IMG/VR virus record: IMGVR_UViG_3300032562_000004
Location: 62,001-126,000 of that record
DNA length: 64,000 nucleotides
Strand: one strand, 5' to 3'
From: a virus
Made by a program: the position numbers and the translations under genes. A model generated the notes under the pieces. The model was not told the origin of the DNA. It saw only the letters and a program-made list of their open reading frames with translations, and searched no databases. Below, in pieces: positions 5,250-55,834 of the stretch; within the stretch, counting starts at the first letter, position 1, and every line of letters begins with the position of its first letter.

Positions 5250-5255
5250 GATATA

Positions 5256-5292: not shown

Positions 5293-5295
5293 ATA

Positions 5296-5358
5296 TTATT
5301 TACCGTTTGGGTAGTTCAACTGTTCCCATTCTTCATCTGTAACAGGCCACCAGTTCAT
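5296..5358 (-). CDS. Micro-ORF, 20 residues
   Basis: MNWWPVTDEEWEQLNYPNGK. Its ATG overlaps the stop of the upstream 90-residue gene (ATGA) and its own stop is 4 nt before the terminator-like hairpin. Acidic and rich in Trp. The MNW start resembles the 56-residue gene (MNWLKY). Coupling supports translation, but an ORF this short could be chance. Confidence 0.4.
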   Translation of the reverse strand: MNWWPVTDEEWEQLNYPNGK

Positions 5359-19824: not shown

Positions 19825-20299
19825 GATTTGCATACTCACCGTGTAAGTGGTTTCTCATTTTGTTTGCCATAATAATTGCCTCATCTTTATTTTTAAATCT
19901 ACCATAATATTTTTTAATTTTATTAACTTGAAAAGATACCATCCAACTAGTGGTTCTTTTATCCCAATAAATGTTTTTAACGCCAGAGGAATTATCTTTT
20001 CTTTTTTTGGTATTCCATCCGTTTTGTGATTTAGTAACACATCTTAAATTTTCTATTTTATTATTACTTTTATCTCCATCTATATGGTCAATTTCTTTTG
20101 GAAAATAACCATTAAACATAAAGTATACCAACCTGTGAGCATAGAATCTTTTATTAAATATTTTTATTTGTATATAACCTCGTGCATTAACATTACCGGC
20201 TTCAGATCCTACAGGAATAACAGAACTTGGTTGTTTTTTCCAAAACAATTTTCCTTCTTTATAATAGAGATATTCTTTTAAATTATCTTGTGTTATCAT
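19814..20299 (-). CDS. HNH-AP2 homing endonuclease upstream of gp55
   Basis: A 161-residue protein. GYIQIKIFNKRFYAHRLVYF and EIDHIDGDKSNNKIENLRCV are the classic HNH_3 core (residues about 40-85), NTKKRKDNSSGVKNIYWDKR and SWMVSFQVNKIKKYYGRFKN the AP2 DNA-binding domain. It overlaps the gp55 start by 11 nt. This nuclease class is common in T7- and T4-like phages as a free-standing homing gene. Confidence 0.92.
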   Translation of the reverse strand: MITQDNLKEYLYYKEGKLFWKKQPSSVIPVGSEAGNVNARGYIQIKIFNKRFYAHRLVYFMFNGYFPKEIDHIDGDKSNNKIENLRCVTKSQNGWNTKKRKDNSSGVKNIYWDKRTTSWMVSFQVNKIKKYYGRFKNKDEAIIMANKMRNHLHGEYANHGD

Positions 20300-26085: not shown

Positions 26086-26730
26086 TTAAAGTTTTTTCAT
26101 GAAGTTCTCAAAAATGTGTAGACTAACTTCCTCAATCTCTTTGCGTGAAGCATGGCGAATCTGTTTGATTGCCCGAGAGTGATCCTGTTCTGTCCAAACA
26201 CCATTGACTAACATCCATTCTTTACCTTCCATAATGCCCTGCACAAAAGCACCTGGTGCGGAAGGGTCTGCTACAATATCTGCCGCTGTGGCTAGATAAA
26301 AATCGTTCTGAACAACATTAACACCATTAACGTTTTTCAATGAACCCATACCTCTTGATGAAACACCTAATTGAGCGCCACCTTCAATAAGGCTTCTGGC
26401 GATTTGACCCATAGGAGTATCAAGAATTTTTGCTTTACCGATCCATTGTGTACCATCTTCTCTCAAACCAACAATCATATGTGATACACGGTCTAAGTTA
26501 ATGGTTGGTGTTTCAGGATGTCCCAATTCACCAAAGGCACGGTTTTTGTTAATATATTCTTCAGTATAACGATGAACTTCTTTTTTCATCGTGTTGTATT
26601 CATACAAACGGCCATTCTTGTTTTTCTTTTCGGAAACGAGAAAAGGACCTTCAATAAAGAGTTCCTTTTTACCATCGGTACCTTCGGTAATATAATTTAC
26701 CGTTTCGTTAATTTCTTTAATAAGTTTCAT
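26086..26730 (-). CDS. 21: Prohead core protease gp21
   Basis: A 214-residue serine protease of the herpesvirus-assemblin-like family (T4 gp21: 212). The catalytic His71 is in FGELGHPETPTINLDRVSHM and Ser125 in LGVSSRGMGS. It cleaves gp22, gp23 and core proteins during head maturation. It lies immediately upstream of gp22. Confidence 0.95.
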   Translation of the reverse strand: MKLIKEINETVNYITEGTDGKKELFIEGPFLVSEKKNKNGRLYEYNTMKKEVHRYTEEYINKNRAFGELGHPETPTINLDRVSHMIVGLREDGTQWIGKAKILDTPMGQIARSLIEGGAQLGVSSRGMGSLKNVNGVNVVQNDFYLATAADIVADPSAPGAFVQGIMEGKEWMLVNGVWTEQDHSRAIKQIRHASRKEIEEVSLHIFENFMKKL

Positions 26731-27158
26731 AATCCTATTGCCCTTCGTTTTCTTAACGATATTTTTCTTTTTCTTATTGACGTTCTCAATTTAGCACGTC
26801 TTTTAAACTTTGACCTTCTGGACCCTATCTTACGATGCCTACGTTCTGCCGGCATCATTCGTACTAATTTACCAGCACGAATTGTATAACCTTTAACTGC
26901 CGAAAACTTCTTACGGCGTTGTATCTTACCTTTACGGACACGAACACGAATTACTTTGGTTCGTCCCATCTTTAATACATTTGACTTCTTGTTACCTTCA
27001 AATACCAATTCTGGTATTGCATCACCAAACATTTGAGAAGCAATCTCTTGCTTCTTTTCATCTAACTTATCGTAGATGATAGTTTCTAATATCTCGTCTA
27101 AATCCTTTTTCGCCTCTAATAACCTGTCGGATAAAAGATTTGAAATAAAAACATTCAT
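26727..27158 (-). CDS. Highly basic prohead-core-like protein
   Basis: A 143-residue protein. The first 50 residues form an acidic helix (LLEAKKDLDEILETIIYDKL, DEKKQEIASQMFGD) like T4 prohead core proteins gp67/gp68. The last 80 are extremely Arg/Lys-rich (VIRVRVRKGKIQRRKKFSAV, RRSKFKRRAKLRTSIRKRKI). It overlaps gp21 by ATGA and lies where T4 has gp68. It may bind DNA or the acidic scaffold inside the head. Position and N-terminus favour a prohead core role; not proven. Confidence 0.6.
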   Translation of the reverse strand: MNVFISNLLSDRLLEAKKDLDEILETIIYDKLDEKKQEIASQMFGDAIPELVFEGNKKSNVLKMGRTKVIRVRVRKGKIQRRKKFSAVKGYTIRAGKLVRMMPAERRHRKIGSRRSKFKRRAKLRTSIRKRKISLRKRRAIGL

Positions 27159-27742
27159 TACGGTACCAAATTGTATGGCTTGTAGTTGAACGCTGCTGGT
27201 TCGTTGAACTGACCACGTTGGTACATAGCGTTGTTCTTACGCAAAGTAATAATTAAAGTGTATGCACTATTTGCAGTACCACCTGTTGTTTGAATACCAA
27301 TATCTCCAACACCAACAGTATTAGCATGAATACCGTCACCAGAATTATTTAAAATAGATGGTAACTGCTCGCCTAGTCCAAACTCACCTTGTAAGTTTAG
27401 ATGAAAAATGGTTGATGAGTTGGCATATGCTGATGCAGCTGTGCCTGTGTTGTTGCCTGACCAAAACAATTCGACACCACCAACATTTGATGTTGGAAAG
27501 TTAACGTAATATTTTACGCCAGTTAACTGTAAATCGTAGTATGACAATGTTGTATTAGCAGAACCACCTTGTGAGTTTGCTACCAAATAGTTATTGGTTG
27601 CCAAAGCACCATACAAAGTATTAGCTTGAATACGAGCAACGTTTAATTCTGATCCTGATACGCCATCAAATACGCCAGTTAACTTAATAATAGCATCGGT
27701 CTGTGTGTCTCTTAGGACTTGGTATGTAAATTTATTTGACAT
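27158..27742 (-). CDS. Virion-type protein A of a tandem paralogous pair
   Basis: A 194-residue beta-rich protein, MSNKFTYQVLRDTQTDAIIK onward. It shares with the upstream gene the start (YxVLxDTxxxAxIKLTxxFDG), the block NVARIQANTLYGAL, and the end AYTLIxxLRKxNAMYQRGQFN-PAAFN-PYNLxP. It sits in the head gene cluster between gp20 and gp21. Probably structural; function unknown. Confidence 0.65.
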   Translation of the reverse strand: MSNKFTYQVLRDTQTDAIIKLTGVFDGVSGSELNVARIQANTLYGALATNNYLVANSQGGSANTTLSYYDLQLTGVKYYVNFPTSNVGGVELFWSGNNTGTAASAYANSSTIFHLNLQGEFGLGEQLPSILNNSGDGIHANTVGVGDIGIQTTGGTANSAYTLIITLRKNNAMYQRGQFNEPAAFNYKPYNLVP

Positions 27743-27743
27743 A

Positions 27744-28262
27744 TTATGGGTTCAAGTTATAAGGTGGAGCATTAAATGCAGCAGGATCATTAAATTGACC
27801 ACGCTGATACATTGCGTTATCTTTACGAAGCTCTACAATTAATGTGTAAGCACAATTTGCAACCAAACCAAAAGTTTGTACACCAATATCACCTGTAGCA
27901 CCTACGGCATTGTTTCTAATCGTAACCATGCCTTGTTCTTCTGAATATTGACCACACAAATCCATGTTAAAGATTGGAACAGTATTGGCAGTATTTGCTG
28001 CATTCCAAAACAACTCAACGTAACCTTTTTGTTGAGAAGCAATATTGTAACCAATTCTTGAAATGGTTATATTATAAAATGGCTTTGCTGTGTTGCCTGT
28101 TACTAATAAATTATTGTTAGCATCTAAAGCACCATACAAAGTATTAGCTTGAATACGAGCAACATTATACTCTTGACCAGAACCGTCAAAATTAGCAGTT
28201 AATTTAATAACGGCTTTTTGTGTTGTATCTTTTAATACTTCGTATGTATAAATGTTGGACAT
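27744..28262 (-). CDS. Virion-type protein B of a tandem paralogous pair
   Basis: A 172-residue paralogue of the next gene, from which it is separated by 1 nt. It lacks the Gly/Asn-rich insertions of that copy (centre VELFWNAANTANTVPIFNMD against VELFWSGNNTG plus extra residues). Likely a duplicated head or decoration protein. Confidence 0.65.
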   Translation of the reverse strand: MSNIYTYEVLKDTTQKAVIKLTANFDGSGQEYNVARIQANTLYGALDANNNLLVTGNTAKPFYNITISRIGYNIASQQKGYVELFWNAANTANTVPIFNMDLCGQYSEEQGMVTIRNNAVGATGDIGVQTFGLVANCAYTLIVELRKDNAMYQRGQFNDPAAFNAPPYNLNP

Positions 28263-28270
28263 TCTTTATC

Positions 28271-28486
28271 CTATTTAAATTCTTCTGGTACAGATGTGGA
28301 CCATTGCATTGCTTCATATGGTACTGTTACATATTTATCGATCTTATCCACATAGTACAAAGCGACTCTTTGTCCGTTAGGAAATTGCCTAACAGACTTA
28401 CGTTTCATAATCAAAACGGCAGGAGGATCCATAGTCTTTTGACTGGATCTTTTTGCTTCAGCAATTACTTGTTTAAGCGTTTTCAT
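28271..28486 (-). CDS. Unknown small basic protein in the head cluster
   Basis: A 71-residue protein from ATG 28484-28486 (MKTLKQVIAEAKRSSQKTMD); a GTG 21 nt earlier is in frame. A basic helix is followed by a beta-like ALYYVDKIDKYVTVPYEAM. It overlaps the 58-residue gene upstream by 14 nt. No family recognised. Confidence 0.55.
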   Translation of the reverse strand: MKTLKQVIAEAKRSSQKTMDPPAVLIMKRKSVRQFPNGQRVALYYVDKIDKYVTVPYEAMQWSTSVPEEFK

Positions 28487-28649
28487 CCGAATCAGATTCT
28501 TCTTCACTACGGAAGAAATTTTGTGCTACCGCTTGTTTAGCTGCTTCAATATGAGCAGTTACTTTATCGTGAATGGAAGCATAGAGTGCATTTCTAAATT
28601 CTACACCATTATCATCCATTGCATAGTCTATGATTTGTCTTGTATCCAT
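28473..28649 (-). CDS. 67: gp67-like prohead core protein (small)
   Basis: A 58-residue ORF. Helix MDTRQIIDYAMDDNGVEFRN is followed by AAKQAVAQNFFRSEEESDSD, an alpha-helix with an acidic tail. This resembles T4 gp67 (80 residues), where IARNFLIEGEEPEDEDED occupies the same place. It directly follows gp20, the T4 position of 67. GAGGAG and a late octamer precede it. Confidence 0.65.
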   Translation of the reverse strand: MDTRQIIDYAMDDNGVEFRNALYASIHDKVTAHIEAAKQAVAQNFFRSEEESDSDENA

Positions 28650-28665
28650 TTGTTTCTCCTCAAAA

Positions 28666-28673
28666 TATTTATA
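28666..28673 (-). promoter_or_regulatory. Late promoter of the 67-21 unit
   Basis: Exact TATAAATA on the minus strand between the gp20 stop and the gp67-like gene. Confidence 0.7.
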
Positions 28674-28681
28674 ATAAACGC

Positions 28682-30310
28682 TTAATCATTCGTTTTTTTG
28701 GCTGCTCGCTGAGCCATTTCAGCTTCGTGTTCTTGATCCAATGGATTACCAGGTTGGCTTGGTACTTGTGACATCATCTGTTGTTGTGCCACATCATTCA
28801 TTACTCCAACTGGTAAACCAAGGCCAGCTTCTTTTTCTTCATCCATCTCAGTTTGCATCTCTTTAATTTCATCGTCTGTTAAACGGAGAACATTGCGTTG
28901 AATCCAAGATTGTGAGAAATAACGACCAGTATAAGCATCAACGGCACCTAATAACTGTAGGCGGTTGGTCATTAATTCTGCTTCTTTTAATTCGGTAAAG
29001 TTATTATCACGAATAAAATCGTAATGAATATCATCTTGAAAATACTTCCATTCTTCATTAGTACAAATACCTTTAAGAACACATTGCACACGAAGTGCTT
29101 GGTCAAACATATCGGTAAATTTACTACGGAGTTTTTCAACAAAACGTGAGAACTTAATTTCATCACGGGTAATTTCTGTTGAACGACCTAATGAGAAACC
29201 TGAAGATTCTGGATTTAATCGTGAGATAGGAACATTTAATGCTTTGTACAATTTCTTTTCAAAGTACTTAACATCTTCCAACTCACCTAAGTTTTGACCA
29301 CCCGGTAATGTTGCAATTTCTGTACCTTTTCCACCTTCACGGCGTGGCAACCAGAAATCTTCAAGCATAGAAAGGTGTTTACGGTCATCACGAACTTCAC
29401 CGGTATTTGAATCGTATACCAGTTTGTTCTTATATTTGACCATGATATCACGGAGGTATTGTTCTGCCTTTAACTTTGGAAGATTACCCACGTCAATATA
29501 AAAAATACGGCGTTCAGGAGCACGACTGATACGATAAATGACTGTGGCATCTTCAATCATCCTTAACTGGTTAAGTGGTTTGATTGCTTTGTGTAAGTAA
29601 GACAACACTACTGCACGGCGACTGTCCATCAGTCCAGAAACCACGGAGATGATGGAATCTGTTGTGATTCGTACACCTACTGGTCCAAAGTTTTGTGACG
29701 ATCCTGTAGTCACCTTGTCGTTATAAATGTAATATTCATTTACCACATTCATTACATCCACACCAGTGCGCTCATCCTTTTGTTTCTTGATTTCACGGAT
29801 TTTACGGAGTTTGCGTGGATCGATATAACGGAGTTCTTTGATACCAGAATTTGGTGATTCGTGGTCGATGATAATGTGGAAGAATAAACGACCATCAACA
29901 TAGTATCTACGGAACAAATCTTGTGCCATACTCTTGTAATTTAATAACCGAATAATGGTATCAAATTCTTTTTTAATGGCGTTTTTAATTTTTTCTGGTT
30001 GTTCTAGATTGTCTAATACCAGTTTGATTGTGTTACCATCATCATCTTCACAGATTGCTTCACCAACGATATCATCAATGGCTGATTCAATTTCGGGTTG
30101 CATTGCCATTTCACGATAACGAGAAATAAGTTCTACGTCATTTTTGGCGGTACCATCAAGATCAACATAAGTGCCATAATAGGCCGCAGAGGTAATGGTA
30201 AGAGCACCATCGTCATTTGATGGTGGTGAGAATGATTGTTGTGCTACCTGTTCTTCTTCGTCTTTAGCACGAGCAATCGTAAAACCGAAAAGAGAGAATT
30301 TATTTGCCAT
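28682..30310 (-). CDS. 20: Portal protein gp20
   Basis: A 542-residue portal vertex protein (T4 gp20: 524). It forms the 12-mer ring for DNA entry and the neck. Typical blocks are ELISRYREMAMQPEIESAID, MAQDLFRRYYVDGRLFFHII, YRISRAPERRIFYIDVGNLP and KALNVPISRLNPESSGFSLG. The C-terminus is Gln-rich. No strong Shine-Dalgarno is visible before its ATG. Confidence 0.97.
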   Translation of the reverse strand: MANKFSLFGFTIARAKDEEEQVAQQSFSPPSNDDGALTITSAAYYGTYVDLDGTAKNDVELISRYREMAMQPEIESAIDDIVGEAICEDDDGNTIKLVLDNLEQPEKIKNAIKKEFDTIIRLLNYKSMAQDLFRRYYVDGRLFFHIIIDHESPNSGIKELRYIDPRKLRKIREIKKQKDERTGVDVMNVVNEYYIYNDKVTTGSSQNFGPVGVRITTDSIISVVSGLMDSRRAVVLSYLHKAIKPLNQLRMIEDATVIYRISRAPERRIFYIDVGNLPKLKAEQYLRDIMVKYKNKLVYDSNTGEVRDDRKHLSMLEDFWLPRREGGKGTEIATLPGGQNLGELEDVKYFEKKLYKALNVPISRLNPESSGFSLGRSTEITRDEIKFSRFVEKLRSKFTDMFDQALRVQCVLKGICTNEEWKYFQDDIHYDFIRDNNFTELKEAELMTNRLQLLGAVDAYTGRYFSQSWIQRNVLRLTDDEIKEMQTEMDEEKEAGLGLPVGVMNDVAQQQMMSQVPSQPGNPLDQEHEAEMAQRAAKKTND

Positions 30311-30341
30311 CGTATTTTATTCCAATTCAAAAAAACATAAT

Positions 30342-30363
30342 GAAAGGAACCGTAGTCCCTTTC
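30342..30363 (-). terminator. Terminator after gp19
   Basis: GAAAGGGAC/GTTCCTTTC 9-bp stem (one G-T) with loop TACG, then after five bases a run of seven T on the minus strand. Located between gp19 and gp20. Confidence 0.85.
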
Positions 30364-30378
30364 GTATAATAGTATATA

Positions 30379-30927
30379 TTAAGCGTCTGTAGAGGCAGCA
30401 TTCGTCCAGTATTGGTATGCGAATGTTACACCGTATTCTTCGATGGTATCGTTTGAACCCCAATCTAAATCAATTGCAGCCATATCTAACGGGAACATAC
30501 CAACAAATTTGTATGTGTTAATTGCTTCGCCTGTTTTACCATACTGAATAACAGAAGCGTCAACTGAATAACTTGAAGGAGTACCAGCAGCGGCACTTCT
30601 TACGTTTCCTGCGTGACTATTAATAGAATTCATCCAAGACTCAACTGAATTACGGATTAAGAAATCTTCATCATTAATAATCTGCAATGTCCAGTCAGTA
30701 AATGTACGGTTACCAGCAAACTTTAATTCACGACCATAATAATAAACTGGAACTGTACCAACTGTTGAACCAGGTAACTGTGCTGATTTGGCCATAAACG
30801 TGAGTTTTTGACCAGCAGCAACGGAGTTATTAGCAAATGTTGGAAGGGTTAATGTTACTTGAAATAGATTAGGACGGGCACCGTCTCCAATCAGATTCGC
30901 TCTAAATTCTGCTACGTTGAAAGCCAT
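30379..30927 (-). CDS. 19: Tail tube protein gp19
   Basis: A 182-residue protein (T4 gp19: 163). MAFNVAEFRANLIGDGARPN, FMAKSAQLPGSTVGTVPVYY, YGRELKFAGNRTFTDWTLQI and IDLDWGSNDTIEEYGVTFAY are diagnostic tube-protein blocks. It polymerises on the baseplate hub to form the inner tube. Late octamer upstream and strong terminator downstream indicate its own abundant transcript. Confidence 0.96.
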   Translation of the reverse strand: MAFNVAEFRANLIGDGARPNLFQVTLTLPTFANNSVAAGQKLTFMAKSAQLPGSTVGTVPVYYYGRELKFAGNRTFTDWTLQIINDEDFLIRNSVESWMNSINSHAGNVRSAAAGTPSSYSVDASVIQYGKTGEAINTYKFVGMFPLDMAAIDLDWGSNDTIEEYGVTFAYQYWTNAASTDA

Positions 30928-30950
30928 TGTTTTCTCCTATATCGTTGTAT

Positions 30951-30958
30951 TATTTATC
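30951..30958 (-). promoter_or_regulatory. Late promoter of gp19
   Basis: GATAAATA on the minus strand, 24 nt before the gp19 ATG; fits NATAAATA. AGGAG follows. Confidence 0.55.
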
Positions 30959-30961
30959 TGA

Positions 30962-32737
30962 TTAAACACCAGCTTGTCCAACGACTTCACTAAATGCAAC
31001 ACCAGTTCTTACTGCAACAAAGTTCAATTGGATAAAGTTAATGGAACGGGCAGGTTTAATGTAAATATCACCAACAAATTGGTTAGCATCAACAACTTCT
31101 GGAGTATTGTTTGTAGAATCACAAACCACTTGGAAGTCATAGATACCACGGCGACCTTGTACATCTCTTAGGAATGGAGTTACCAAAGATACAAATTGTG
31201 CTTGTGTAAAGGCATCATTAAATTCAAACAATGAATATTGTGAAGCCGTAGCAATTGTTTTCTCAAGCACAATGAATAGTCTGCGAACATTGATACGGTC
31301 AAAAGCGGAAGGTTTGGATTGTAAAGTTTTGTCTCCGTACAATACTGTACCATTGCCAGGGAAAGTAACTACTGGATTAATACCTGCTGCATAAAGTGTA
31401 TCACGTTGAGATTTAGTAGGATTCCATGCCAACTTAACAACATTCTTCAAGTTACCACGGTTGAATCCAGCTGGTGAATACCATGGATCACGAATCGAAT
31501 CGGTGTATACACACAGACCAGCAGTATCACCATTTAATGGTATCCAACGATATACGTTGTTATACTTATCAAACATATACTTCCAACCTGAGTCAGCAAC
31601 TGCATATGATGTTGAACGAGCTAATGAAGTGTTCCATGTAGTAATATTTGCAACTTCGTTACCTGTTTGGTTAACAACAGCAGAAGAAGGAGGCGATACA
31701 AATGCCACACAATCTTTACGAGAATTGGCAATATTATCAATTACATATTGTTGAACAGTAGTATCAGCACCACCTGTAATTACCAACGAAATATCAACAG
31801 CATCAGCATTTTGGAATAATGAATAGGCATTTTCCAAATCAGCATCGGTTGGTTGTACATCAGTACCATTGGCCAAAGTAACATAGTTAGGACCAGTAGA
31901 AGCATTATTACCTAAAACGGCAAAACTGGTATTGGCTAAGTTGCGACCCCAATAATTTGTAGACTGAGTATTTGCAGTATTTGCATACTGTGGAGGATCC
32001 ATTACATAAATGTATTTGGAATTATTATAGATGTAGTTCTTATAGTAATTTGAGTTACCCAATGAATCTTTGGCATCAGCACCTTTGGACATGAATGGGA
32101 ATACTTCAAGAACGGTATTTTTGGCACCAGTGAATAAACCACCAGTATCAACCACAACCATGTGAATTTCATCGTTTGCGGCACCAGCTGCAGCAGCTTG
32201 TGCTGAAGTACCAGGAGCAGCATTAAAGTAAGAAGAAACTCCAACACCGTTTACGTTCCAAGAAGCAAACTGACTAGCAAGACCAGCATCAAGAACAGAA
32301 ACAGTTAATGAATTACCTAAAACTCCAGGGTAACGAGCAACAACAGGACCATAAGCATTAGCATTGGTCAAGTTTTGTAAATATTGTGCTTGAAAAACAT
32401 CTTTGTTAGGTACTTGAACAGTACTTGTTACCAAACCGGTAATAGGACTTACGTTTGAAGATGCGTTGTAAGCACTTGTATTAGCAGCACGAACTACTTG
32501 TAAATTATTACCATAAGCTAAGAAAGAAGCTGCGGTAAAAAATGAAGTATATGTGTTGGAGTCTGGATTACCAAAGTATTTTGCTAGAGTAATTTCGCTA
32601 TCAACACTAACGATTTTGTTTACTGGACCCCATACGAAGCTTCCAGCAAAAGCACCGGCCGTAGTTAGAACCGATGGAACGACTGTAGTTAAGTCGACTT
32701 CGGAAACATTTACGCCTGGAGAGATTTGAAATGCCAT
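30962..32737 (-). CDS. 18: Tail sheath protein gp18
   Basis: A 591-residue contractile sheath protein (T4 gp18: 659). The start MAFQISPGVNVSEVDLTTVV, the block VWGPVNKIVSVDSEITLAKY, FGNPDSNTYTSFFTAASFLA, and the C-terminal FVSLVTPFLRDVQGRRGIYD through INFIQLNFVAVRTGVAFSEV are family-typical. AAGGAG precedes the ATG. It sits directly upstream of gp19. Confidence 0.97.
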   Translation of the reverse strand: MAFQISPGVNVSEVDLTTVVPSVLTTAGAFAGSFVWGPVNKIVSVDSEITLAKYFGNPDSNTYTSFFTAASFLAYGNNLQVVRAANTSAYNASSNVSPITGLVTSTVQVPNKDVFQAQYLQNLTNANAYGPVVARYPGVLGNSLTVSVLDAGLASQFASWNVNGVGVSSYFNAAPGTSAQAAAAGAANDEIHMVVVDTGGLFTGAKNTVLEVFPFMSKGADAKDSLGNSNYYKNYIYNNSKYIYVMDPPQYANTANTQSTNYWGRNLANTSFAVLGNNASTGPNYVTLANGTDVQPTDADLENAYSLFQNADAVDISLVITGGADTTVQQYVIDNIANSRKDCVAFVSPPSSAVVNQTGNEVANITTWNTSLARSTSYAVADSGWKYMFDKYNNVYRWIPLNGDTAGLCVYTDSIRDPWYSPAGFNRGNLKNVVKLAWNPTKSQRDTLYAAGINPVVTFPGNGTVLYGDKTLQSKPSAFDRINVRRLFIVLEKTIATASQYSLFEFNDAFTQAQFVSLVTPFLRDVQGRRGIYDFQVVCDSTNNTPEVVDANQFVGDIYIKPARSINFIQLNFVAVRTGVAFSEVVGQAGV

Positions 32738-32789
32738 TTGTTATCTCCTTGATATTATGATTTATTTGGCAGTTAAGATACCATACAGA

Positions 32790-32797
32790 TATTTATG
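32790..32797 (-). promoter_or_regulatory. Late promoter of gp18
   Basis: CATAAATA on the minus strand, in the 71-nt gap between gp17 and gp18; fits NATAAATA. Confidence 0.5.
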
Positions 32798-32808
32798 ATA
32801 GGTCATAT

Positions 32809-34491
32809 TTAGAGATTTTTTATCATATCTTTAATAAAACCAGAATAAACTTCACCGCCATCTGCAAATTCCCACACATCACCATCAATAACTTCTAGTC
32901 CCGGTCTTTCCAAACCAGTTTCAATGATAGGTGCAGGTAGTGTTTCTTCATCCAACTGGTTCAAATTCTCCAGCTGAATTTGTTTACGAATGTCGTGGTT
33001 AACAATGTCTTTGAAATACTTTTGACCTGTTGCCCACGCAAACATAACTAAACCCATTACTAAGTCATCATTGTGGCCATCGTCTGCCTTAAATGATGTT
33101 TTGTCGGCCACAAAAGTGGTCAATTCAGAAATGGTATCAAAATCATTAACTATTAATTTATTACCTTCAATTAAAGTTTTAAGATTTGAACAACCAATTC
33201 GTTTTACAGCAACCGACATTTTGAGTCCTAATTGGACTCCTCTACCAAAACCACCTGATAATTGTTGTGGTTTTTTATTGCCCGTAAAGATTTTCATTAG
33301 ATTTTCATACTCTAAATCTTGATGAATAATATCTGCTACGGTTGGATTAGTATTAATTTCTATTAAAATGTAAGCATCATTATATAACCTAGCGGCATTA
33401 TAAATGACCGTTGGGAACAACATTGCAGACATAGAAGTACTACGATAACTAGCCACCTGCTTATAAGGAGTGGTAGATATATCTATTACAGAGAAAGCTT
33501 GAGCGTCCAGATTTCGACCTTCGGACACATCAACCACAAGCATATACATGTGGTCTTTGGTTGTTTCATCGTTACCTTTGATTGGTTGTTCATAAATTTT
33601 CATCATATCAAAATCAGCAATTGGTTCTTGATAAACCAACTGTTGCAATTTGGTACCAGAAATCAAAGTATTCGTAGAACCTAAAAACTCAGTTTCAAAT
33701 TCTTGACGGAACTGATGTTCTGATGTGTTACGGATTGTTTCTTCTTTCCATGCCTCATCACGACCTGGTACCATAGACCAATGAACTTCAAATGGTACAT
33801 AGTTGTTTTTCTTATTGATTGCGTCCGTCCAAATCTTATAGAACAGATTCATACCATTAGGAGTAGAAACAATAATAATCTTAGTTTTAGTACCAGCAGT
33901 AATAACTGGATAAACTGAGGTAAAGAAGTCTGTGGCTATGTTTGCTGGTACGAAAGCAAACTCGTCTAAAAATACAATGTTATACGAACCAGAACGAGCC
34001 GCTGAACTTGATGTGGAAGAAGCAACGATTACAGAACCGTTTTCTAATTCTACACGACCTTTGTTCCACTCAATCACACCTTGTTGTAACCACATAGGTA
34101 GATTTTCATAGGCCAACTGAAGTTTACCAAGAATGGCTCGAGCAGTTTCGCCTCGGTTAGCAAGAACGGCAACAGTCTGTGAATCTTGAAATAGAATAGT
34201 CCAAAGTAAATATGCCACCGTAGTGGTGGTTTTACCAACCTGACGAGGACATTTCATGATTGTAAAACGATTATTATTAAACGTTCTAATCATGTCTTCT
34301 TGAAAGTCATACATTTTAAAATCAGTTACACCTTCATCGAGTGTAATAATCTTAATGTATTTGGCAAAATAAATTGGATCTTTTGCGCACTTAATGTATT
34401 CTTGGACTTGTTCTTCCGTAAATTCAACCTGAACACCTACTCGTTTTAGTAGAGGGTTATCTCGGTAACTTTGTTTATTTTTTGTTGCCAT
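32809..34491 (-). CDS. 17: Terminase large subunit gp17
   Basis: A 560-residue packaging motor (T4 gp17: 610). ATPase Walker A CPRQVGKTTT (81-90), Walker B IVFLDEFAFV (171-180) with catalytic Glu176, coupling motif IVSTPNGMNLFYKIW, and the RNase-H-like nuclease aspartates in LVVDVSEGRNLDAQAF and DGHNDDLVMGLVM. No inserted intein or intron is visible. It overlaps gp16 by 17 nt. Confidence 0.97.
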   Translation of the reverse strand: MATKNKQSYRDNPLLKRVGVQVEFTEEQVQEYIKCAKDPIYFAKYIKIITLDEGVTDFKMYDFQEDMIRTFNNNRFTIMKCPRQVGKTTTTVAYLLWTILFQDSQTVAVLANRGETARAILGKLQLAYENLPMWLQQGVIEWNKGRVELENGSVIVASSTSSSAARSGSYNIVFLDEFAFVPANIATDFFTSVYPVITAGTKTKIIIVSTPNGMNLFYKIWTDAINKKNNYVPFEVHWSMVPGRDEAWKEETIRNTSEHQFRQEFETEFLGSTNTLISGTKLQQLVYQEPIADFDMMKIYEQPIKGNDETTKDHMYMLVVDVSEGRNLDAQAFSVIDISTTPYKQVASYRSTSMSAMLFPTVIYNAARLYNDAYILIEINTNPTVADIIHQDLEYENLMKIFTGNKKPQQLSGGFGRGVQLGLKMSVAVKRIGCSNLKTLIEGNKLIVNDFDTISELTTFVADKTSFKADDGHNDDLVMGLVMFAWATGQKYFKDIVNHDIRKQIQLENLNQLDEETLPAPIIETGLERPGLEVIDGDVWEFADGGEVYSGFIKDMIKNL

Positions 34492-34933
34492 CTTTAATTA
34501 ATTTTGCCAATTCTGTGGTTGAGCCAACAAAAATGGCTTTATCGATATTGGTACTAGAAGATGATTTTTCTTTCATACCAGACATTTCACGCATTTGCTT
34601 TTGTATATTTAGGAGTTCTTTATTGGCATCAACCACGTTTTTCAGTAGAGTACCATAAACTTCAAATGCTCTTGGGTGTTGTCCGGCTTTAGCAATGGTT
34701 AGAATTTCTTCCATTGCTTCTGTGCCTTGTTCAATTAGACCTTGAAGATTTTCTTTTGATTGTTGATAAGCATCAGTTAAATCTTGTTGTAGTTCTTCTT
34801 CAACATTTTCAGATTTAATTACTGGTAACACAGGATGTTTGTTTGTATTGGTATCATTAATACCAGAATCATTTAGAAATTCTTTTGGTGTTACATCAAA
34901 AATTTCTTCCATGGATTTTTCAAATTTGTTCAT
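34475..34933 (-). CDS. 16: Terminase small subunit gp16
   Basis: A 152-residue helical protein (T4 gp16: 164). Central coiled-coil LIEQGTEAMEEILTIAKAGQ, HPRAFEVYGTLLKNVVDANK and ELLNIQKQMREM are typical of the small-terminase family; the N-terminus is a disordered acidic segment. It regulates gp17 and recognises DNA for packaging. Confidence 0.92.
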   Translation of the reverse strand: MNKFEKSMEEIFDVTPKEFLNDSGINDTNTNKHPVLPVIKSENVEEELQQDLTDAYQQSKENLQGLIEQGTEAMEEILTIAKAGQHPRAFEVYGTLLKNVVDANKELLNIQKQMREMSGMKEKSSSSTNIDKAIFVGSTTELAKLIKDGNKK

Positions 34934-34959
34934 ATTAAATTCCGTATGTGCCTTTTACT

Positions 34960-35967
34960 TTAAGTATTTGGATAATAAGATGATATATTAGGTGTTTCTT
35001 CAATAATTGTGGTAACAGCATATGAAGTGTTTGCATTGGCAGTAGTTGGATTAGGCTCAATTATTATTTGAGCATAATTAATTGGATTTACTTGATAAGA
35101 ACCAAACACATAGTTAGCATTAGATGCTCGACCAATTACTGGCAAATCAGATACAAAATTACCTGAAACATCTGTTAATGTTAATTGATTATTATTCCAG
35201 TAAATAACTTTACCTGATGCGGTAGAAGTACCAGCAGAATAACCTTGATATACTACTTCACCAATCTGATATGTTCCAATTCCTGGTGAGGTCATATTGA
35301 ACACAATATTATCAGTTGATGAAATTGTATTAAGAATATTGGTGATAGAAGTTTTAATTAATCCTGTAGAACTAATATTACCATAAATGAAACCTTTAAC
35401 AGTAAAGTTAAGTGTCCAAATAATCATACGAGTTTCTACTGTATGTGCATCACCTTCATATTCAATTTCTTGATTTGCAGAATTTAAAATAATAGGAACT
35501 TCTTTAACTATTCCCATTTCAGGAATTAAATTTAATTTGATTGTATAATCTGGTGCAAAAAATGGAATAATATGTTCTACAATTTGAGTACCATCTTCAA
35601 TGTTACGAACATAAATGTATAAATTAAAATCAAAATTGTATGGTACTGGATTATATTGAGAAACTATACCTTCTGATGTTGAAGCAAAATTTTTAATGTT
35701 TGTGTTTTGTTTTCTGGTAGCATCATAAGTCATACCAGTCATTTCAAAAGACATTCTTGGTAATGTAGTTTGAATCTTTTTATCTAAATTTGGATCATCT
35801 TCAAGTCGCTTAACATACATCTCTTTGGCCGCATAAACAATTGGCACAAGCATACGTTGTGCTTCTGAATTATCAGGATTGTAACGCACTAAAGTAATGT
35901 TATCAAATAGGTTACCAAAACCTACAACTAACTTACGAATCACTCTATTGTATGTTGTATTTGCCAT
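34960..35967 (-). CDS. 15: Tail sheath stabiliser / completion protein gp15
   Basis: A 335-residue protein (T4 gp15: 272). The first 215 residues match the gp15 family: RKLVVGFGNLFDNITLVRYN, RMLVPIVYAAKEMYVKRLED, TLPRMSFEMTGMTYDATRKQ. About 90 extra residues at the C-terminus form a small beta module (GEVVYQGYSAG, TDVSGNFVSDLPVIGRASNA) also found in gp14, gp8 and the gp7-like protein here. Confidence 0.93.
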   Translation of the reverse strand: MANTTYNRVIRKLVVGFGNLFDNITLVRYNPDNSEAQRMLVPIVYAAKEMYVKRLEDDPNLDKKIQTTLPRMSFEMTGMTYDATRKQNTNIKNFASTSEGIVSQYNPVPYNFDFNLYIYVRNIEDGTQIVEHIIPFFAPDYTIKLNLIPEMGIVKEVPIILNSANQEIEYEGDAHTVETRMIIWTLNFTVKGFIYGNISSTGLIKTSITNILNTISSTDNIVFNMTSPGIGTYQIGEVVYQGYSAGTSTASGKVIYWNNNQLTLTDVSGNFVSDLPVIGRASNANYVFGSYQVNPINYAQIIIEPNPTTANANTSYAVTTIIEETPNISSYYPNT

Positions 35968-37124
35968 TAGATACTACCAAAAGGATTAGATTCAGATAAA
36001 TCCAAAATTGAATTTGCTGAAGTTGCCAAATAAGAGTTATCATAGTTCTCTTTCTTGGCAGGATTATTTAAAGGATCAAAACTAATCAATGTGTATTGTG
36101 CATTAGAAGAAGAACCATATACAAACTGGCCATCAATAAATTCACCAGCAATATTGTTTAATGATAATACATCTGTACTTTGTACCCACGATTGAACAAA
36201 ACCAAGTGCTGTAGCATTGGATTGTGTGGTATCTGGTGATTGATAGACCAATTCACCAACATTGTAATCGAGACCATTAGAACCTGATAATGGTGCAGAG
36301 AATGTAGTTACTGTACCTGATGTGGTGTTAGCAGTTTTAATTTGATATAAAGAACCAGAAATGATAACTTGTGTAATTGGTTGTTGAATGTATGTGGTGT
36401 TATTCATCACATAACTAAATGTATCTCCAACTTTCAAACTTTGTAAAATAGGAATTAATGTGGAGTCGGTAGTATTAATATTTAAATAACCATTATTATA
36501 TACTGCAGCAGACCAGTTAATAGGTTTATAAATGTGAAACAAACGACCATCCATATTCAAATGTGTGGTGTAACCAGAATCAGAAACAACAATATCAATA
36601 TCAGCAACACCAGTTTGAATAATTTCTTGTGAGTATTTGTATTTCTCTAGAACCAATTCATAAAAATATGGGTATTTTTTACCCAACATATTGAAGTCTT
36701 TATTGTGTTCTACAAATTTAATCTCAAATAATTCACCAACACCATTGGTAACTGGTACATATACTAAATCACCTTCTCGTGGTCTAGTAAAAGTATTCTG
36801 TGGAACTCTCTGTTGAAATGACCTGCGAGAACAGATTACATTCAAATCATCTTTAATTTCTAAACCAAATTTGGTAAATATATCACGCTGACCGATGTAA
36901 TCAGTTGGGTCAGAAGAAATATACATCTCCAATGGAAAAGCATCTTGAAATTTCTTGACTGGATCTTCACCATACAATAAATCACGAGCGGCATCATTGG
37001 AGTTAGGAAGGTAAAACGCATTAAATCCCATAATCTTAATGGATTCAACGATTAAATCTTCGATAACTCTTTGTTCTGGTTGTGCCGATTTACCGTAATT
37101 GTTAAAGTATTGGTTAATTCCCAT
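35967..37124 (-). CDS. 14: Neck protein gp14
   Basis: A 385-residue protein (T4 gp14: 256). The N-terminal block EQRVIEDLIVESIKIMGFNA, then DPTDYIGQRDIFTKFGLEIK and GDLVYVPVTNGVGELFEIKF, are typical. The C-terminal part contains the VYQS-type beta module (GELVYQSPDTTQ, GEFIDGQFVYGSSSNAQYTL). With gp13 it seals the filled head. Its stop overlaps the gp15 start region (TAATG). Confidence 0.93.
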   Translation of the reverse strand: MGINQYFNNYGKSAQPEQRVIEDLIVESIKIMGFNAFYLPNSNDAARDLLYGEDPVKKFQDAFPLEMYISSDPTDYIGQRDIFTKFGLEIKDDLNVICSRRSFQQRVPQNTFTRPREGDLVYVPVTNGVGELFEIKFVEHNKDFNMLGKKYPYFYELVLEKYKYSQEIIQTGVADIDIVVSDSGYTTHLNMDGRLFHIYKPINWSAAVYNNGYLNINTTDSTLIPILQSLKVGDTFSYVMNNTTYIQQPITQVIISGSLYQIKTANTTSGTVTTFSAPLSGSNGLDYNVGELVYQSPDTTQSNATALGFVQSWVQSTDVLSLNNIAGEFIDGQFVYGSSSNAQYTLISFDPLNNPAKKENYDNSYLATSANSILDLSESNPFGSI

Positions 37125-37125
37125 A

Positions 37126-37899
37126 TTAGTTCATCATAAATTCTACCGGGAGACTGTACATATCTTGCATCTGGCCTTCCAACATTTTAATTTCTTCAAC
37201 GGCTTCATCATATGTTTCTTTACCATTCAATGTCACGCCACCTGGAAGTTGTAACCCACCAAACTTCTTCATATTGTTTCCCCATGTTCTCTTGATAAGT
37301 GCTGTGGTGTATTGTTGAAGCCAACGGTCTTCCCAAACTTTAGTATAAACATCGGGGTTCACAGAAGCATAACATTCGGCAATAACTGTGGTACCTACCG
37401 GTGCTTCTTCGGCACCCCACGCCCAATCGATATACAACCGTTGCATGTGGCGGTTAAAACGAATAGGAACCTCTCCAGTGAACAATAGTTCTAGTGAACG
37501 TAAGTGTTGCATCGTCAAGGTATAATTGATGTATGATGCGGAGGTGAAGTCGTAGAGTTCGTTTAGACGTAATTGATATCTAAGGTCGAACATATTAACG
37601 GTTGCCTGAGAATCTGAAAGTGGAAATATACGAGTAACACCAATAATATCTAAAGCATTGTTGGCATTATCTTCAGCATCCGTCAGGTCCAGGTACATAT
37701 TGTCTATGTCCTGTTGCTGAATTTGTTTGATATAGTAGAACTTTTGTGTACCATCAAAATGATAATCCTGCCAAATTTTTATGGCGTCATCAACTCTATC
37801 TGAAATTTGGTCGGAGTCAACATTTATATCTATTACCGGAGCACCTAATCTGCGTAAGCAATAATCGATAAATTCTTGTCTTGTTGTTATAGCTGCCAT
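37126..37899 (-). CDS. 13: Neck protein gp13
   Basis: A 257-residue protein (T4 gp13: 309). RLGAPVIDINVDSDQISDRV, DDAIKIWQDYHFDGTQKFYY and MQRLYIDWAWG are family-typical. GAGGAT precedes the ATG. Its first 15 codons reappear in the HNH gene just upstream (35 of 45 nt identical), so this start was probably rebuilt when the endonuclease gene inserted. Confidence 0.94.
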   Translation of the reverse strand: MAAITTRQEFIDYCLRRLGAPVIDINVDSDQISDRVDDAIKIWQDYHFDGTQKFYYIKQIQQQDIDNMYLDLTDAEDNANNALDIIGVTRIFPLSDSQATVNMFDLRYQLRLNELYDFTSASYINYTLTMQHLRSLELLFTGEVPIRFNRHMQRLYIDWAWGAEEAPVGTTVIAECYASVNPDVYTKVWEDRWLQQYTTALIKRTWGNNMKKFGGLQLPGGVTLNGKETYDEAVEEIKMLEGQMQDMYSLPVEFMMN

Positions 37900-37900
37900 A

Positions 37901-38599
37901 TTATCCTCTACCTAAAACAAAGCCATGTGGCTCTTGTCCTTGAATAAAATATTTTTGTTGTTTTGTTAATGGGTTATGATACCATTTTTTACCTAAAGAA
38001 TTTTTTGGAGAGTTTAAAGACATTTTTTTACGTCTTTCTTCTGTGTGTTTTATTCCAGATAAAGATTGTTTAATTTTTTCTTTATGTTCTTTTGATTTTG
38101 ATTTTCCATAGTGTGGACATAATTCACCTTTTTTACCATACATAGGATTGTTTTGTCCTGATGAATCCCAATGTGAATCGGTTGCTATTTTAACCATATG
38201 GTTTCTATATTCTTCCGTTTTCCATTGTTGTTTTTTATAATCACTATATTCTTTTTTGGCCAAATCATAAAGTTTAGAGTTGATATATCTGAATTGTGTT
38301 CTTTCGGTCTTTCTTTTCATACCAACTAAAGCAGTCAACATCTTATACTTATATTGTCCCGTAACAAATTTAGGCAATAAAGCATGGCAAAGAAAGTGTT
38401 CCCGTGCAGTCAATAGTACGGTATCATTGTTTTTAGAGATACTTTGGGGAACGATATGGTGAGATTCCACATATACCGGAGCGGTCTTTTTGGTCCAACC
38501 ACGAGACAAAGCATTGTTTACAATAGAAAAATACCATTTATTGTATTTGTTCTGTAAGCAATAATCTTTAAATTGTTGTCTGGAAGTAACTGCCGCCAT
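37901..38599 (-). CDS. HNH homing endonuclease carrying a copy of the gp13 start
   Basis: A 232-residue protein. Residues 1-15 (MAAVTSRQQFKDYCL) copy the gp13 N-terminus (MAAITTRQEFIDYCL). The nuclease core follows: YVESHHIVPQSISKNNDTVL and LTAREHFLCHALLPKFV (HNH), then a basic linker and NUMOD3-type repeats (NNPMYGKKGELCPHYGKSKS, KEHKEKIKQSLSGIKHTEER) and a C-terminal GKKWYHNPLTKQQKYFIQG. It lies 1 nt before gp13 and uses the late promoter at 38621-38628. Confidence 0.92.
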   Translation of the reverse strand: MAAVTSRQQFKDYCLQNKYNKWYFSIVNNALSRGWTKKTAPVYVESHHIVPQSISKNNDTVLLTAREHFLCHALLPKFVTGQYKYKMLTALVGMKRKTERTQFRYINSKLYDLAKKEYSDYKKQQWKTEEYRNHMVKIATDSHWDSSGQNNPMYGKKGELCPHYGKSKSKEHKEKIKQSLSGIKHTEERRKKMSLNSPKNSLGKKWYHNPLTKQQKYFIQGQEPHGFVLGRG

Positions 38600-38620
38600 T
38601 GTAATCTCCTATGATGGAGG

Positions 38621-38628
38621 TATTTATA
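38621..38628 (-). promoter_or_regulatory. Late promoter of the HNH-13-14-15 unit
   Basis: Exact TATAAATA on the minus strand, 22 nt before the HNH gene ATG; TAGGAG follows. Confidence 0.75.
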
Positions 38629-38644
38629 CTTTGTGTGGAAACAA

Positions 38645-38670
38645 AAAACAGGAGTCTAAGCTCCTGTTTT
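38645..38670 (-). terminator. Strong rho-independent terminator
   Basis: Perfect 10-bp stem AAAACAGGAG/CTCCTGTTTT with a 6-nt loop, followed by a T run on the minus strand. It closes the unit of the 91-residue gene, 20 nt after its stop. Confidence 0.92.
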
Positions 38671-38690
38671 AATTAAAAAATTGTTTTAAA

Positions 38691-38966
38691 TTAACAATCG
38701 GTGGCGCCAGCGTAATCACTAAATGTTTTCAATACTGCATAGATTGCTGGAAGCAAATCACCTTTGCCAGCCAAATCTGCTGTGCTGATATAATGAGCAT
38801 TTTCTTTAACAGTTGCCATATTGGCCTGACGTGCTGCTTCATTATAATAAATAGCTACTTGAACTTGTAATTGGTCTTTAGAACCAAAAAAGTTAGTAAC
38901 ACGAGCATATGCTTCAGGTGCTGGTTGACCAAATTGTGTTGTTGGTAAATTTAATTGTAATGCCAT
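38691..38966 (-). CDS. Unknown 91-residue protein, single-gene late unit
   Basis: MALQLNLPTTQFGQPAPEAY onward, then FFGSKDQLQVQVAIYYNEAA and a helical C-terminus LLPAIYAVLKTFSDYAGATD. An exact late octamer and AAGGAG stand before it and a perfect terminator after it, so it is probably made late and in quantity. A small virion or baseplate-associated component is likely. I have no firm family name. Confidence 0.65.
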   Translation of the reverse strand: MALQLNLPTTQFGQPAPEAYARVTNFFGSKDQLQVQVAIYYNEAARQANMATVKENAHYISTADLAGKGDLLPAIYAVLKTFSDYAGATDC

Positions 38967-38993
38967 GGTAAATCTCCTTTGTTGTTGACTGCT

Positions 38994-39001
38994 TATTTAT
39001 A
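38994..39001 (-). promoter_or_regulatory. Late promoter of the 91-residue gene
   Basis: Exact TATAAATA on the minus strand, 28 nt before the ATG, just after the stop of the giant fibre gene. Confidence 0.75.
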
Positions 39002-39009
39002 CTACTATT

Positions 39010-42000
39010 TTATGCTACTTCTACGGTTTGAACTCTTGCCACCCAATGAATAGTTGTGGCGGCCACGCCTATTCCGTTAATACTAAGAGCACCATTGGTG
39101 GTATCTGCTGTTGCGGTACAATTTCCAACAGTTCCCCAACCTTGAGATATTGCACCAGAAGTGGCTCCAAGTAAAGTTACTGTAGGTGATCCTACTAAAG
39201 TGGTTGATGCTGCTGAAGATCCTCTTGTTATTAATCCTTCAAGTTTCCATGAAGCCGCATCGCCTGTCGAAGTATTACGACCTACAACATAAGCAACATA
39301 ATTATATGCCCAATTATTTGGTAGTGTTACAAGAGAATTTGTGGCTGGAGAAAATAATCCTGCTGTTAATTGAGTGGTTGAAGAAGTTGTAGTGGTTGCC
39401 AATAACATATATGTGCCAGATTGTGCATCACCTTGAGCCGCAAAACCTCCAGCACTATGGGCATATGCGCCAGCAATACTTCTTGTTGTAGAGTTCCATC
39501 CAGCAAGAATGCCACTACAATAGCTATTACTCATGTTTCCATAACCACCACCAATAAATGTAGCGGTGTTTGTTGATCCGTTAGAAACTCCCGAGACCAC
39601 TGCAGCTCCGGTACCTGATGCGGTGTTAAAGTTTCCTGCTGCAGCACTTGTTCCAATAAATGATCCATAACCAGAGGCAAGATTTCCGTAACCGCCACCA
39701 ATAAATGAATAATTTCCTGTTGCTTTATTTCCTTGTCCGCCAGTTACAGTACTCCAGTCACCTGATGCTAAGTTTCCGTTTGCTGCAGTGCCGGCATCAC
39801 CGCCACCACCAACAAAACTGTATGCTCCGTTGGCAGAATTATTACCCCCACCAACCACAACGCCATGAGGAGTGTAGAAAGATAACGTTGGTGTTCCGTT
39901 TGCACTAGCATTTTGAGAAAGTGTAAGAGATGTTCCGCTAATGGCGGTTACATAAGTATCATTTGGATAACTTACAATACCTGTACCACTTACTAATTGA
40001 CCAACTTTGATCGCAGAATTTGAACCAGCAAGAGTTACAGATGTATTTCCAGATGTTACTCCATTTGCTGCGGCCGCTTGAGTTGTTACTGCAACTTGCG
40101 CTGTACCCGCATTGGTAAACCCACCACCAATAAAATTGTAATATCCTTTGGATGAATTTAAAAAACCGCCAACTGAAATTGCATATTGGCCTGATGCGCT
40201 ATTTTGCAATCCACCAGAAATTATTCCATATCCACCATTGGATATATTTCCAGAACCTCCAGATACTACAGCTGCATATCCAGTAGAAGTATTATATGTT
40301 CCGCCACCTAAAAAACAAAGAGTTCCACCGGCTACTTGAGAAGCCGTACTTCTAACAGTTTGCCAATCAACAGCATTAGGACCTCTAGCATTACCACCAG
40401 TAGCTGTAGAAGTAGTTGCTTGTGCTTGTAGTGCGCCTGTTCCTGCTGGAGAAACATAAAGAGAACCATCTGATTGAAGTCCTAGTCCTGCTACTCCACT
40501 AAAGGATAGGGTAGGAGTTCCGTAGATTGCTGTGGTTGTTGTTGGGATGTAGGTGTTGGTTACAGAACCAATTTCAAGCTGTGCGCCCCAAATATAAATT
40601 CCATAACCAACAGTTCCAGCATAAGTATTTGTTCCTCCAACCGCAGGACCAAAATCCAGATACAAAGGATTTATGCCAGAAATTCCAGTAATAGTAACAC
40701 TACATCTATACCAACCATTACCTGCATTAGTTATGTTTGTTGAATATAAATTTGAACCTGTTGAAGAAACTATTGTTCCATTTGATAAATTTATATAAAC
40801 AAATATATTGCCATTTTGAAAATAAAACTGTGTTCTTTCTGCGGCTTTTACATATAATGAAAAGGTATATTGCATTCCAACAGAAACACCACTACTTAGT
40901 GGATTAACAGTTAAACCAAAAAAAGTAGTTGTTGCAGTTTCTTGGATTTTTGTAGCGGTGCTACCGCCTATTGGGTCTGATTGTCCAGTAGAAAGCGTAG
41001 TTCCTGTTGTTGTTCCCCACGGAGAAACAGTAAAAGTTTGTGACTGAGTAAATAAATTTGTACCAGTACCTTTTAATACTTCTGTCTGTCCTGTAATAAT
41101 TCCGTTAAATACTCCGTTTGAAGCATAAACATCACCACCAACTCCTAATCCACCAGAAATAACTACAGAACCAGTTGTGTTACTTGTACTTGGGGTTGTA
41201 TTAGAAAATGTTGTTTGATTATTTGTTGTATATGTACTACCAAGATTCTGTAAGAATATTCCATTACCAGAATTTTGATATGACGTTACTTCAATTACCG
41301 CATTTGCATATGGCGGAGATGAAAGAGTAATTATGTTACCGGTAAGTGTGTAAGCTGTTTTTAATTGTGTGACACCATTTAAGTTAACTGATGTATAGTT
41401 AATATTTTGTGGTGTTTGTGATAATGTAAATGTATTACCGGTACCATTAGCAGTAAATCTATCAACAGCAAGAATAATTCCTGTAGTGTTAGCAAAGAAA
41501 GAAATACCATTTGAATTTAAAATATTGCTTGCGTAAATATTTCCTGAAAAAAATGTATTTGCAGCGTAAATGTTAACGTTACCTGTACCTTTAGGTGTAA
41601 TATTAATATCAATGTTTGTATTGGCACCTTGAGATGATAATACAGGACCACTATTTGATGTGTTACCAGAAACTTGTAAGAAGTTTACAGAAGATGTTGG
41701 TGCAGTAATGAATAAAGCATTGGCCGTATTTGCTAAAAATCCAATAGAACCTGTGGTTGGAAAATACATTCCAATGCCTGAGGTACCTACAAGTCCGTAA
41801 GAAGGATTTGTAGTTGTTCCAGCACCTGCTTGAACTTGTGTTGTTCCATATAATGTTGTTGTTGAAACGCCGGCACTAAATGTAAAAAGTGATCCACTAG
41901 TTTTAGTAAATGAGCCATCACCTAAGAAAATTGTTCCTGAATTTCCTGTTGTGGCCAATCCATTATTAATTGTGAGTGAACCACCAGTAGAGTAAATTGG

Positions 42001-55096: not shown

Positions 55097-55834
55097 TTAT
55101 TTTACCTTAGTTAGCATTTGTTTTCCGTCCACACTTTTATATTTCCAAGAATAAACAGTTTTGTATTTAATCTTATTTATTCGACTATATTCCATTAAAT
55201 CATCAATCAATGTTGTTTGTTTCGTTTGTGGATCATACAAAGCCCACTTATTCATTCTTTTTAATTTCATCTTTTGTTTGGTTTCATCATTATGTTTTTT
55301 ACCAAACATTCCAACTTTATTATCTTTTAAATATTCTTTTCGAGACTCGCTCTGTTTTTTCTTGGTATCAACTGAATGATTTTTACCCACCATTGAAGTC
55401 TTTGCTGCTTGTAAAAACTTTTCATTTGCTTTGGTGCCATACATTGGATGGTTTTTTCCACTCAAAGCATTTCTTTTTGTTCCAACACTAATATTATGTC
55501 TTTGTTCTTTGGTGAGGGGTTCTCTTTTAATGCCGAGCATACCTTTTCTACCACCAACACAACTATTATAACCATTTGGAACTAAAGTATTATGTTCTTG
55601 TATAAAAAATGGTTCCATTATAGTTAAACAATGTTCTACGTCCCAACTTTCATATATTACTTCCCACTTAAAATTGTCCCAACCATGTTTTCTGATTGAT
55701 TTATGAAAAACAAAAGGACTATTATGTTTTGCTTTCTGTTTATGTTGATATTTTCTCTTTTTCAACGCATTAATAGTAAAACCAACATACTTTTTACCTG
55801 TTACCACATTTGTTACTGTATAAATTATAGCCAT
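55097..55834 (-). CDS. GIY-YIG homing endonuclease in the baseplate cluster
   Basis: A 245-residue protein. The N-terminal AIIYTVTNVVTGKKYVGFTI, LKKRKYQHKQ and NFKWEVIYESWDVEHCLTIM...PFFIQEH form the GIY-YIG nuclease domain. NUMOD3 repeats (KNHPMYGTKANE, NKVGMFGKKHNDETKQKMKL) and an HTH-like end (LMEYSRINKIKYKTVYSWKY) bind DNA. Inserted between gp8 and the giant structural gene. Its ribosome binding site is inside a hairpin (55842-55861). Confidence 0.92.
   Translation of the reverse strand: MAIIYTVTNVVTGKKYVGFTINALKKRKYQHKQKAKHNSPFVFHKSIRKHGWDNFKWEVIYESWDVEHCLTIMEPFFIQEHNTLVPNGYNSCVGGRKGMLGIKREPLTKEQRHNISVGTKRNALSGKNHPMYGTKANEKFLQAAKTSMVGKNHSVDTKKKQSESRKEYLKDNKVGMFGKKHNDETKQKMKLKRMNKWALYDPQTKQTTLIDDLMEYSRINKIKYKTVYSWKYKSVDGKQMLTKVK

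Follow-up and report, generated by a model that had tools for sequence, protein, structure and literature searches.

The stretch of DNA analysed here, called the window throughout (64,000 nucleotides), is part of a 235.8 kb IMG/VR virus record and comes from a T4-like phage. An ORF encoding an HNH endonuclease and a complete gp13 gene follow one another on the minus strand (Table 1). The first product had been taken for an HNH endonuclease in an earlier note made from the sequence, and it matches the PHROG profile of the homing endonuclease family phrog_655 (E=4e-29). The HHIxP...REHFxCH pattern is conserved in it, which together with the phrog_655 match places it among the Mob-like HNH nucleases; its Pfam matches are below the cutoffs (NUMOD3, E=0.0065). 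The second product matches phrog_211, head-tail adaptor Ad2 (E=1.5e-41), and the gene after gp13 is gp14 (phrog_460, head closure Hc2). No relative of the HNH protein was found in the PDB by sequence, and a PDB fold search with its AlphaFold model, which is of low confidence (mean pLDDT 72.7, pTM 0.42), gave no usable match. Likewise, no relatives were found in bacterial and archaeal genomes, and a megablast search of the region against named phages gave no match. The HNH gene does not appear to lie inside a self-splicing intron or an intein, because gp13 is intact, the nuclease ORF is complete with its own stop, and no Rfam intron match was obtained at 36900-39100. Further HEG-like ORFs (GIY-YIG, HNH) are encoded in the window (14386-15066; 16824-17315; 18360-19067; 19814-20299; 55097-55834); they are tightly packed against or overlap their neighbours and, by eye, none of them starts like the next gene.

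Table 1. Features of the HNH/gp13 locus, in coordinates of the window.
Feature	Position	Strand	Description
HNH ORF	37901-38599	(-)	232 aa; begins MAAVTSRQQFKDYCL
gp13, complete downstream copy (neck protein, head-tail adaptor Ad2)	37126-37899	(-)	257 aa; begins MAAITTRQEFIDYCL
HNH homing endonuclease body, Mob-like	37901..38554	(-)	QNKYNKWYF...HHIVP...REHFLCH...GRG (stop); phrog_655
Second gp13 start copy, restoring gp13	37855..37899	(-)	MAAITTRQEFIDYCL; 35/45 vs the captured copy
Captured resident gp13 start, codons 1-15, now the HNH N-terminus	38555..38599	(-)	MAAVTSRQQFKDYCL; 45/45 vs the gp13 start of L336 and L337
Insertion junction, gp13 codon 15 / HNH body	38554..38555	(-)	identity with L336/L337 ends here
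HNH 3' end	37900..37912	(-)	GGTAGAGGATAAT; encodes the final residues and stop; SD-like GGTAGAGG directly before gp13
T4-type late promoter element, now 5' of the HNH gene	38621..38628	(-)	TATAAATA; motif match; identical in L336/L337
SD-like AGGAG of the original gp13 leader, now before the HNH ORF	38606..38610	(-)	from sequence; identical in L336/L337
Left block common to the window and the empty-site contigs	38554..38711	(-)	96.8%, 158 nt
Right block common to the window and empty-site L337, from the gp13/gp14 boundary	26710..37131	(-)	98.8%, 10.4 kb

The two genes begin alike, as the earlier note had observed for the interval 37855-38599, which correctly spans both starts. Indeed, 35 of their first 45 nucleotides are identical, GATTATTGCTTA included. 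A scan of the window with the HNH 45-mer, on both strands, gave a mean score of 12.2 (sd 3.0); the gp13 start reached 35 and the next best 45-mer only 25, so the likeness is not due to chance. Among all pairs of the 80 ORF starts of the window, HNH/gp13 is also the best; the runner-up (29) very likely consists of the paralogous ORFs at 27158-28262, two adjacent ORFs with the similar starts MSNKFTYQVLRDTQT and MSNIYTYEVLKDTTQ that apparently derive from a duplication. When the starts of adjacent ORFs were scanned in general, the other pairs returned were tail-gene-like or of other kinds.

The earlier note had proposed looking for relatives that carry gp13 without the HNH gene and in which a single copy of the 45 nucleotides follows the promoter. 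Two viral contigs retrieved with a 21-nt leader pattern, L336 and L337, have exactly this organization: each contains one exact copy of the window's HNH 45-mer, behind the same leader, running into gp13. Between positions -78 and +46 relative to the ORF start, a segment comprising the promoter, the RBS and all 15 codons, the window and these contigs show zero mismatches; beyond +46, L336 and L337 read CGCAGATTAGGC, which is gp13, and the window reads CAGAACAAATAC, which is the nuclease. The junction is ambiguous by 1 nt, gp13 and the HNH body both going on with C. The leader of the resident gp13, with its late-promoter motif and RBS, and its first 15 codons are now the start of the nuclease ORF, and the proposed in-frame insertion after codon 15 is thereby supported, as is the use of the gp13 start by the HNH gene, which would also use the late promoter, recognized by motif match.

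The end of the nuclease ORF overlies a second, new start of gp13. This downstream gp13 is complete and is a diverged allele, sharing 609 of 774 nucleotides (78.8%) and 209 of 257 amino acids with that of L337. Since the captured leader and 15 codons are those of the resident and the gp13 behind them is at 79%, the downstream gp13 is not the resident allele; most simply, it would have arrived with the nuclease from a donor. The earlier idea that a second copy of the codons restored gp13 thus holds in that a complete gp13 follows the nuclease, but this copy is a different allele and not a duplicate of the resident codons. No close relatives with the window's gp13 allele were found by pattern search.

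Other particularities were noted around gp13 in this group. L337 carries a GIY-YIG endonuclease gene between gp13 and gp14 (reverse complement 2986-3687) that the window lacks, and therefore gp13 appears to be bracketed by two nuclease sites in the group; another HNH ORF occupies the same gp13/gp14 gap in L005. A contig with an 88% identical gp13, L009, stops at its base 1 near codon 13, beside the insertion point, perhaps an assembly break caused by mixed empty and occupied alleles.

Besides the window, eight contigs from eight metagenome ids are occupied, and all of their HNH starts are of the gp13 type. In three of them (L003, L004 and L005), a protein search revealed nucleases closely related to that of the window, all directly upstream of gp13 and starting with MATITNRQDFIDYCL, MATITNRNDFKAFCT and MATISTREAFKDYCL, respectively, before the body continues with xNKYxxWYF; in L003, the canonical start is on the nuclease and gp13 has the diverged start MSASKPESREEFKQFCL. 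The additional occupied sites are in L053, L054, L096/L097 and L173. The two gp13-type starts of L096 are identical at 37 of 45 positions, and when an empty relative of this locus was sought by exact matching, only L096 and L097 themselves came up. The site in L173 is a dead remnant from which most of the nuclease has been deleted. In this contig (2246-2500), the internal deletion lies between similar AAAAATGG-type stretches, and the fused and the restored gp13 starts are both retained. In two gp13 scans, occupied sites represent 3 of 109 distinct gp13 5' contexts (L053, L054, L173).

L053 provides a second natural pair with the empty L051, to which it is 92.8% identical over 1,876 nt, up to base 35 of the ORF. 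The presence and absence of the nuclease at one site in otherwise similar genomes is therefore seen twice, in the window versus L336/L337 and in L053 versus L051. The L053 nuclease (4558-5307) has the N-terminal half of those of L004 and L054 and a different C-terminal part, which suggests a module swap at one insertion site. The gp13 proteins of L004, L051-L055, L057 and L059 contain an extra stretch of about 80 aa (about 340 aa in total), absent from the window's gp13.

Furthermore, the sequence of gp13 behind the nuclease was compared between occupied and HNH-less phages. Across gp13 nt 37-105, L004, L053 and L054 share 88-93% with one another and 74-77% with the best empty phage; across nt 271-774, HNH-less phages are the nearest to L053 (95%) and L004 (91%), and L054 is close to both kinds (93% occupied, 91% empty). 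Label permutation, computed on this trio, gave p=0.0002 for the 5' tract and p=0.0006 for the 5'-minus-3' contrast. In L053, gp13 bases 46-105 are closest to the occupied loci (L054, 92%; L004, 83%; empty phages, 67-75%), and from about base 136 the gene is closest to the empty phages L055/L057 (up to 97%). A shared 5' tract was not seen in the older loci (window, L003, L005, L096). In the window, it is the gp13 allele that differs between the matching left block and the right block. These footprints, although indirect, are consistent with a transfer accompanied by co-conversion of flanking markers, and a replacement end of the target gene supplied with the element can be recognized in the downstream allele of the window and in the 5' tract that L053 has in common with L004 and L054.

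Codons 10-25 of the restored gp13 genes display no consistent change of the kind expected from protective recoding. A 23-nt stretch across the insertion point, GATTATTGCTTACGCAGATTAGG, is unchanged in the window's restored gp13, and therefore a nuclease reading that stretch alone would attack its own genome; either its target is wider or self-nicking is tolerated. For the Mob enzymes of T4, nicking of a single strand is reported (PMC2988022).

Taken as a whole, it is very probable that a free-standing, Mob-like HNH homing endonuclease gene has captured the start of its target by sitting in frame after codon 15 of gp13, its copying by repair and its founding route being proposed as follows. The nuclease, presumably capable of cutting and homing, would act on a co-infecting phage that lacks the HNH gene, nicking or cutting its gp13 near codons 12-20, and repair would copy the element from the donor phage. 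Were the left exchange to fall on the junction or slightly to its left, the recipient would retain its own leader and start, fused to the nuclease; with the right exchange inside or beyond gp13, the 5' end of the donor gp13 or the whole donor gp13 would come too, and the essential gene would be kept intact. The footprints of both exchanges are seen, the recipient leader and start on one side and the donor 5' end or whole gene on the other. More likely than not, homing proceeds by repeated swapping of starts: the mobile unit would combine a nuclease body that lacks a promoter with a complete gp13 5' end, or a whole copy, and at each transfer the nuclease would acquire the late promoter, RBS and first codons of the recipient, whose gp13 would be exchanged for the donor allele. 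The insertion mechanism, for which the earlier note claimed direct evidence, is thus documented in its product and exact junction, with cleavage as a presumed step.

The first fusion was probably produced by illegitimate break repair of the one-sided type, in which an ordinary nuclease gene located upstream of an intact gp13 would have been copied through homology on its gp13 side, with a microhomology join at codon 15 on the other, so that the second gp13 start would require no separate duplication event. One-sided illegitimate break repair with microhomology junctions has an experimental precedent in T4 (PMC2988022): that of the td intron, after a double-strand break (Parker, Belisle and Belfort 1999, cited in PMC2988022). 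Homology on one side and a microhomology junction on the other are common to both cases, and this route would create the gp13/HNH architecture; the td case is, however, a laboratory demonstration with an intron, and no intron is involved here.

A two-step origin, in which the nuclease first settled in the leader, immediately ahead of gp13, and received its gp13-like start through a later gene conversion from gp13, is rather unlikely. A broken relative with its own start does lie directly upstream of a distant gp13 (frameshifted HNH, L008 3500-4118), an arrangement that is suggestive of a possible pre-fusion state, and such an origin would yield the same present structure. However, the leader, promoter and start are continuous with those of an empty gp13, and the likeness breaks off abruptly, in the window at codon 15 and in L053 at about codon 12. 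An in-situ tandem duplication, with the nuclease landing in gp13 and the first 15 resident codons being duplicated as repair, would account for two copies in one locus, similar at 35 of 45 positions in the window and at 37 of 45 in L096. It is very unlikely and is largely refuted for the window and L053: the captured copy of the window is the resident allele (45/45 to L337) and its restoring copy, with the whole gp13, is about 21% different; over 36 nt, the captured start of L053 is 97% identical to L051 and the start of its own gp13 74%. An assembly artefact joining the gp13 alleles of two phages is extremely improbable, for although L337-like and window-like alleles could share one sample, the arrangement recurs with different alleles in the eight contigs from eight metagenome ids, one of them with a decayed HNH gene.

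The start of the nuclease could also be due to convergence of the start segments, or be an intrinsic N-terminus of a family whose HNH proteins tend to begin like gp13, the PHROG profile match indeed starting at residue 8, within the gp13-like segment; this can be dismissed almost with certainty, being refuted by the exact DNA match with gp13, 78 nt of untranslated leader included, and by the 136 family starts collected in two scans, which match the next gene only at the gp13 site, most of those elsewhere having a Met 1-9 residues before NKYxxWY. In named phages such as Bp7, KP182, Serratia phage 92A1 and Morganella phage MP1, the family members start in the ordinary way (MNYNKIYDDL and similar). 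Homologous endonucleases with the same N-terminus at sites unrelated to gp13, which according to the earlier note would speak against the insertion, were not found among the family starts examined. Nucleases of the L106/L124 type, upstream of gp14, were considered as carriers of the gp14 start (FxFL) and dropped, the likeness being too short.

Capture of the gp13 start by the nuclease gene would also affect the expression of both genes. The ATAAATA core of the late promoter is found in front of the nuclease in all eight occupied contigs checked, at -28/-29 (or -40) of its start. It is present in none of the eight over the 70 nt that precede gp13, and among the empty gp13 loci 52 of 74 have it within 70 nt of the gp13 start. 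In occupied loci with an intact HNH ORF, the HNH stop and the gp13 start are separated or overlap by +1 to -13 nt, and in the window the SD-like GGTAGAGG sits inside the last codons of the nuclease. Because the late-promoter and SD-like motifs are placed in this way, the nuclease would be transcribed late after a transfer, and gp13 would be translated by coupling to the nuclease. The late expression of the nuclease predicted here is testable, because the known T4 endonucleases are mostly held down.

Among known systems, the free-standing HNH (Mob) endonucleases of T4-like phages (MobE; phrog_655; PMC2988022) resemble the present gene in their phrog_655 HNH nuclease, in dense stop/start overlaps with neighbours, in mosaic presence between close relatives and in a co-conversion-like footprint. 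The Mob and Seg genes described either lie between genes, with a start of their own, or overlap an upstream ORF (PMC2988022), whereas the present ORF draws its promoter, RBS and first 15 codons from the target, and a different allele has taken the place of the essential gene downstream. A start capture with target replacement of this kind was not found in the portions of the T4 review and of a 2023 survey that were covered (PMC2988022, PMC10448857), nor was a phage case of start capture found in the open-access literature searched.

The gp13/HNH architecture is, by analogy, the mirror image of the endonuclease/gene hybrids of fungal mitochondria. In these mobile ORF/gene hybrids (Allomyces atp6; Glomus atp6, atp9, cox2 and nad3), a foreign C-terminal end arrives with the mobile ORF, behind which the native end persists; this displaced native end is closer to relatives (91-98%) than the supplied end (64-81%) (PMC3630166). 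Both share an endonuclease ORF in frame in a gene and a foreign replacement end, with 45/45 versus 35/45 in the present case. In the fungal hybrids, however, the 3' end is duplicated, whereas at the gp13 locus it is the 5' end, the native start lying upstream and being reused as the nuclease start; a duplicated C-terminal end with the native end downstream does not occur there. Furthermore, the host of the present element is a bacterial virus and not a mitochondrion.

The two pairs give natural before and after states of a phage homing endonuclease insertion at base resolution. They reveal a selfish gene inside an essential gene, with neither intron nor intein, that borrows the start of that gene and is followed by a replacement copy, and they suggest that the alleles of a structural gene may be swapped as a by-product of the spread of the nuclease.
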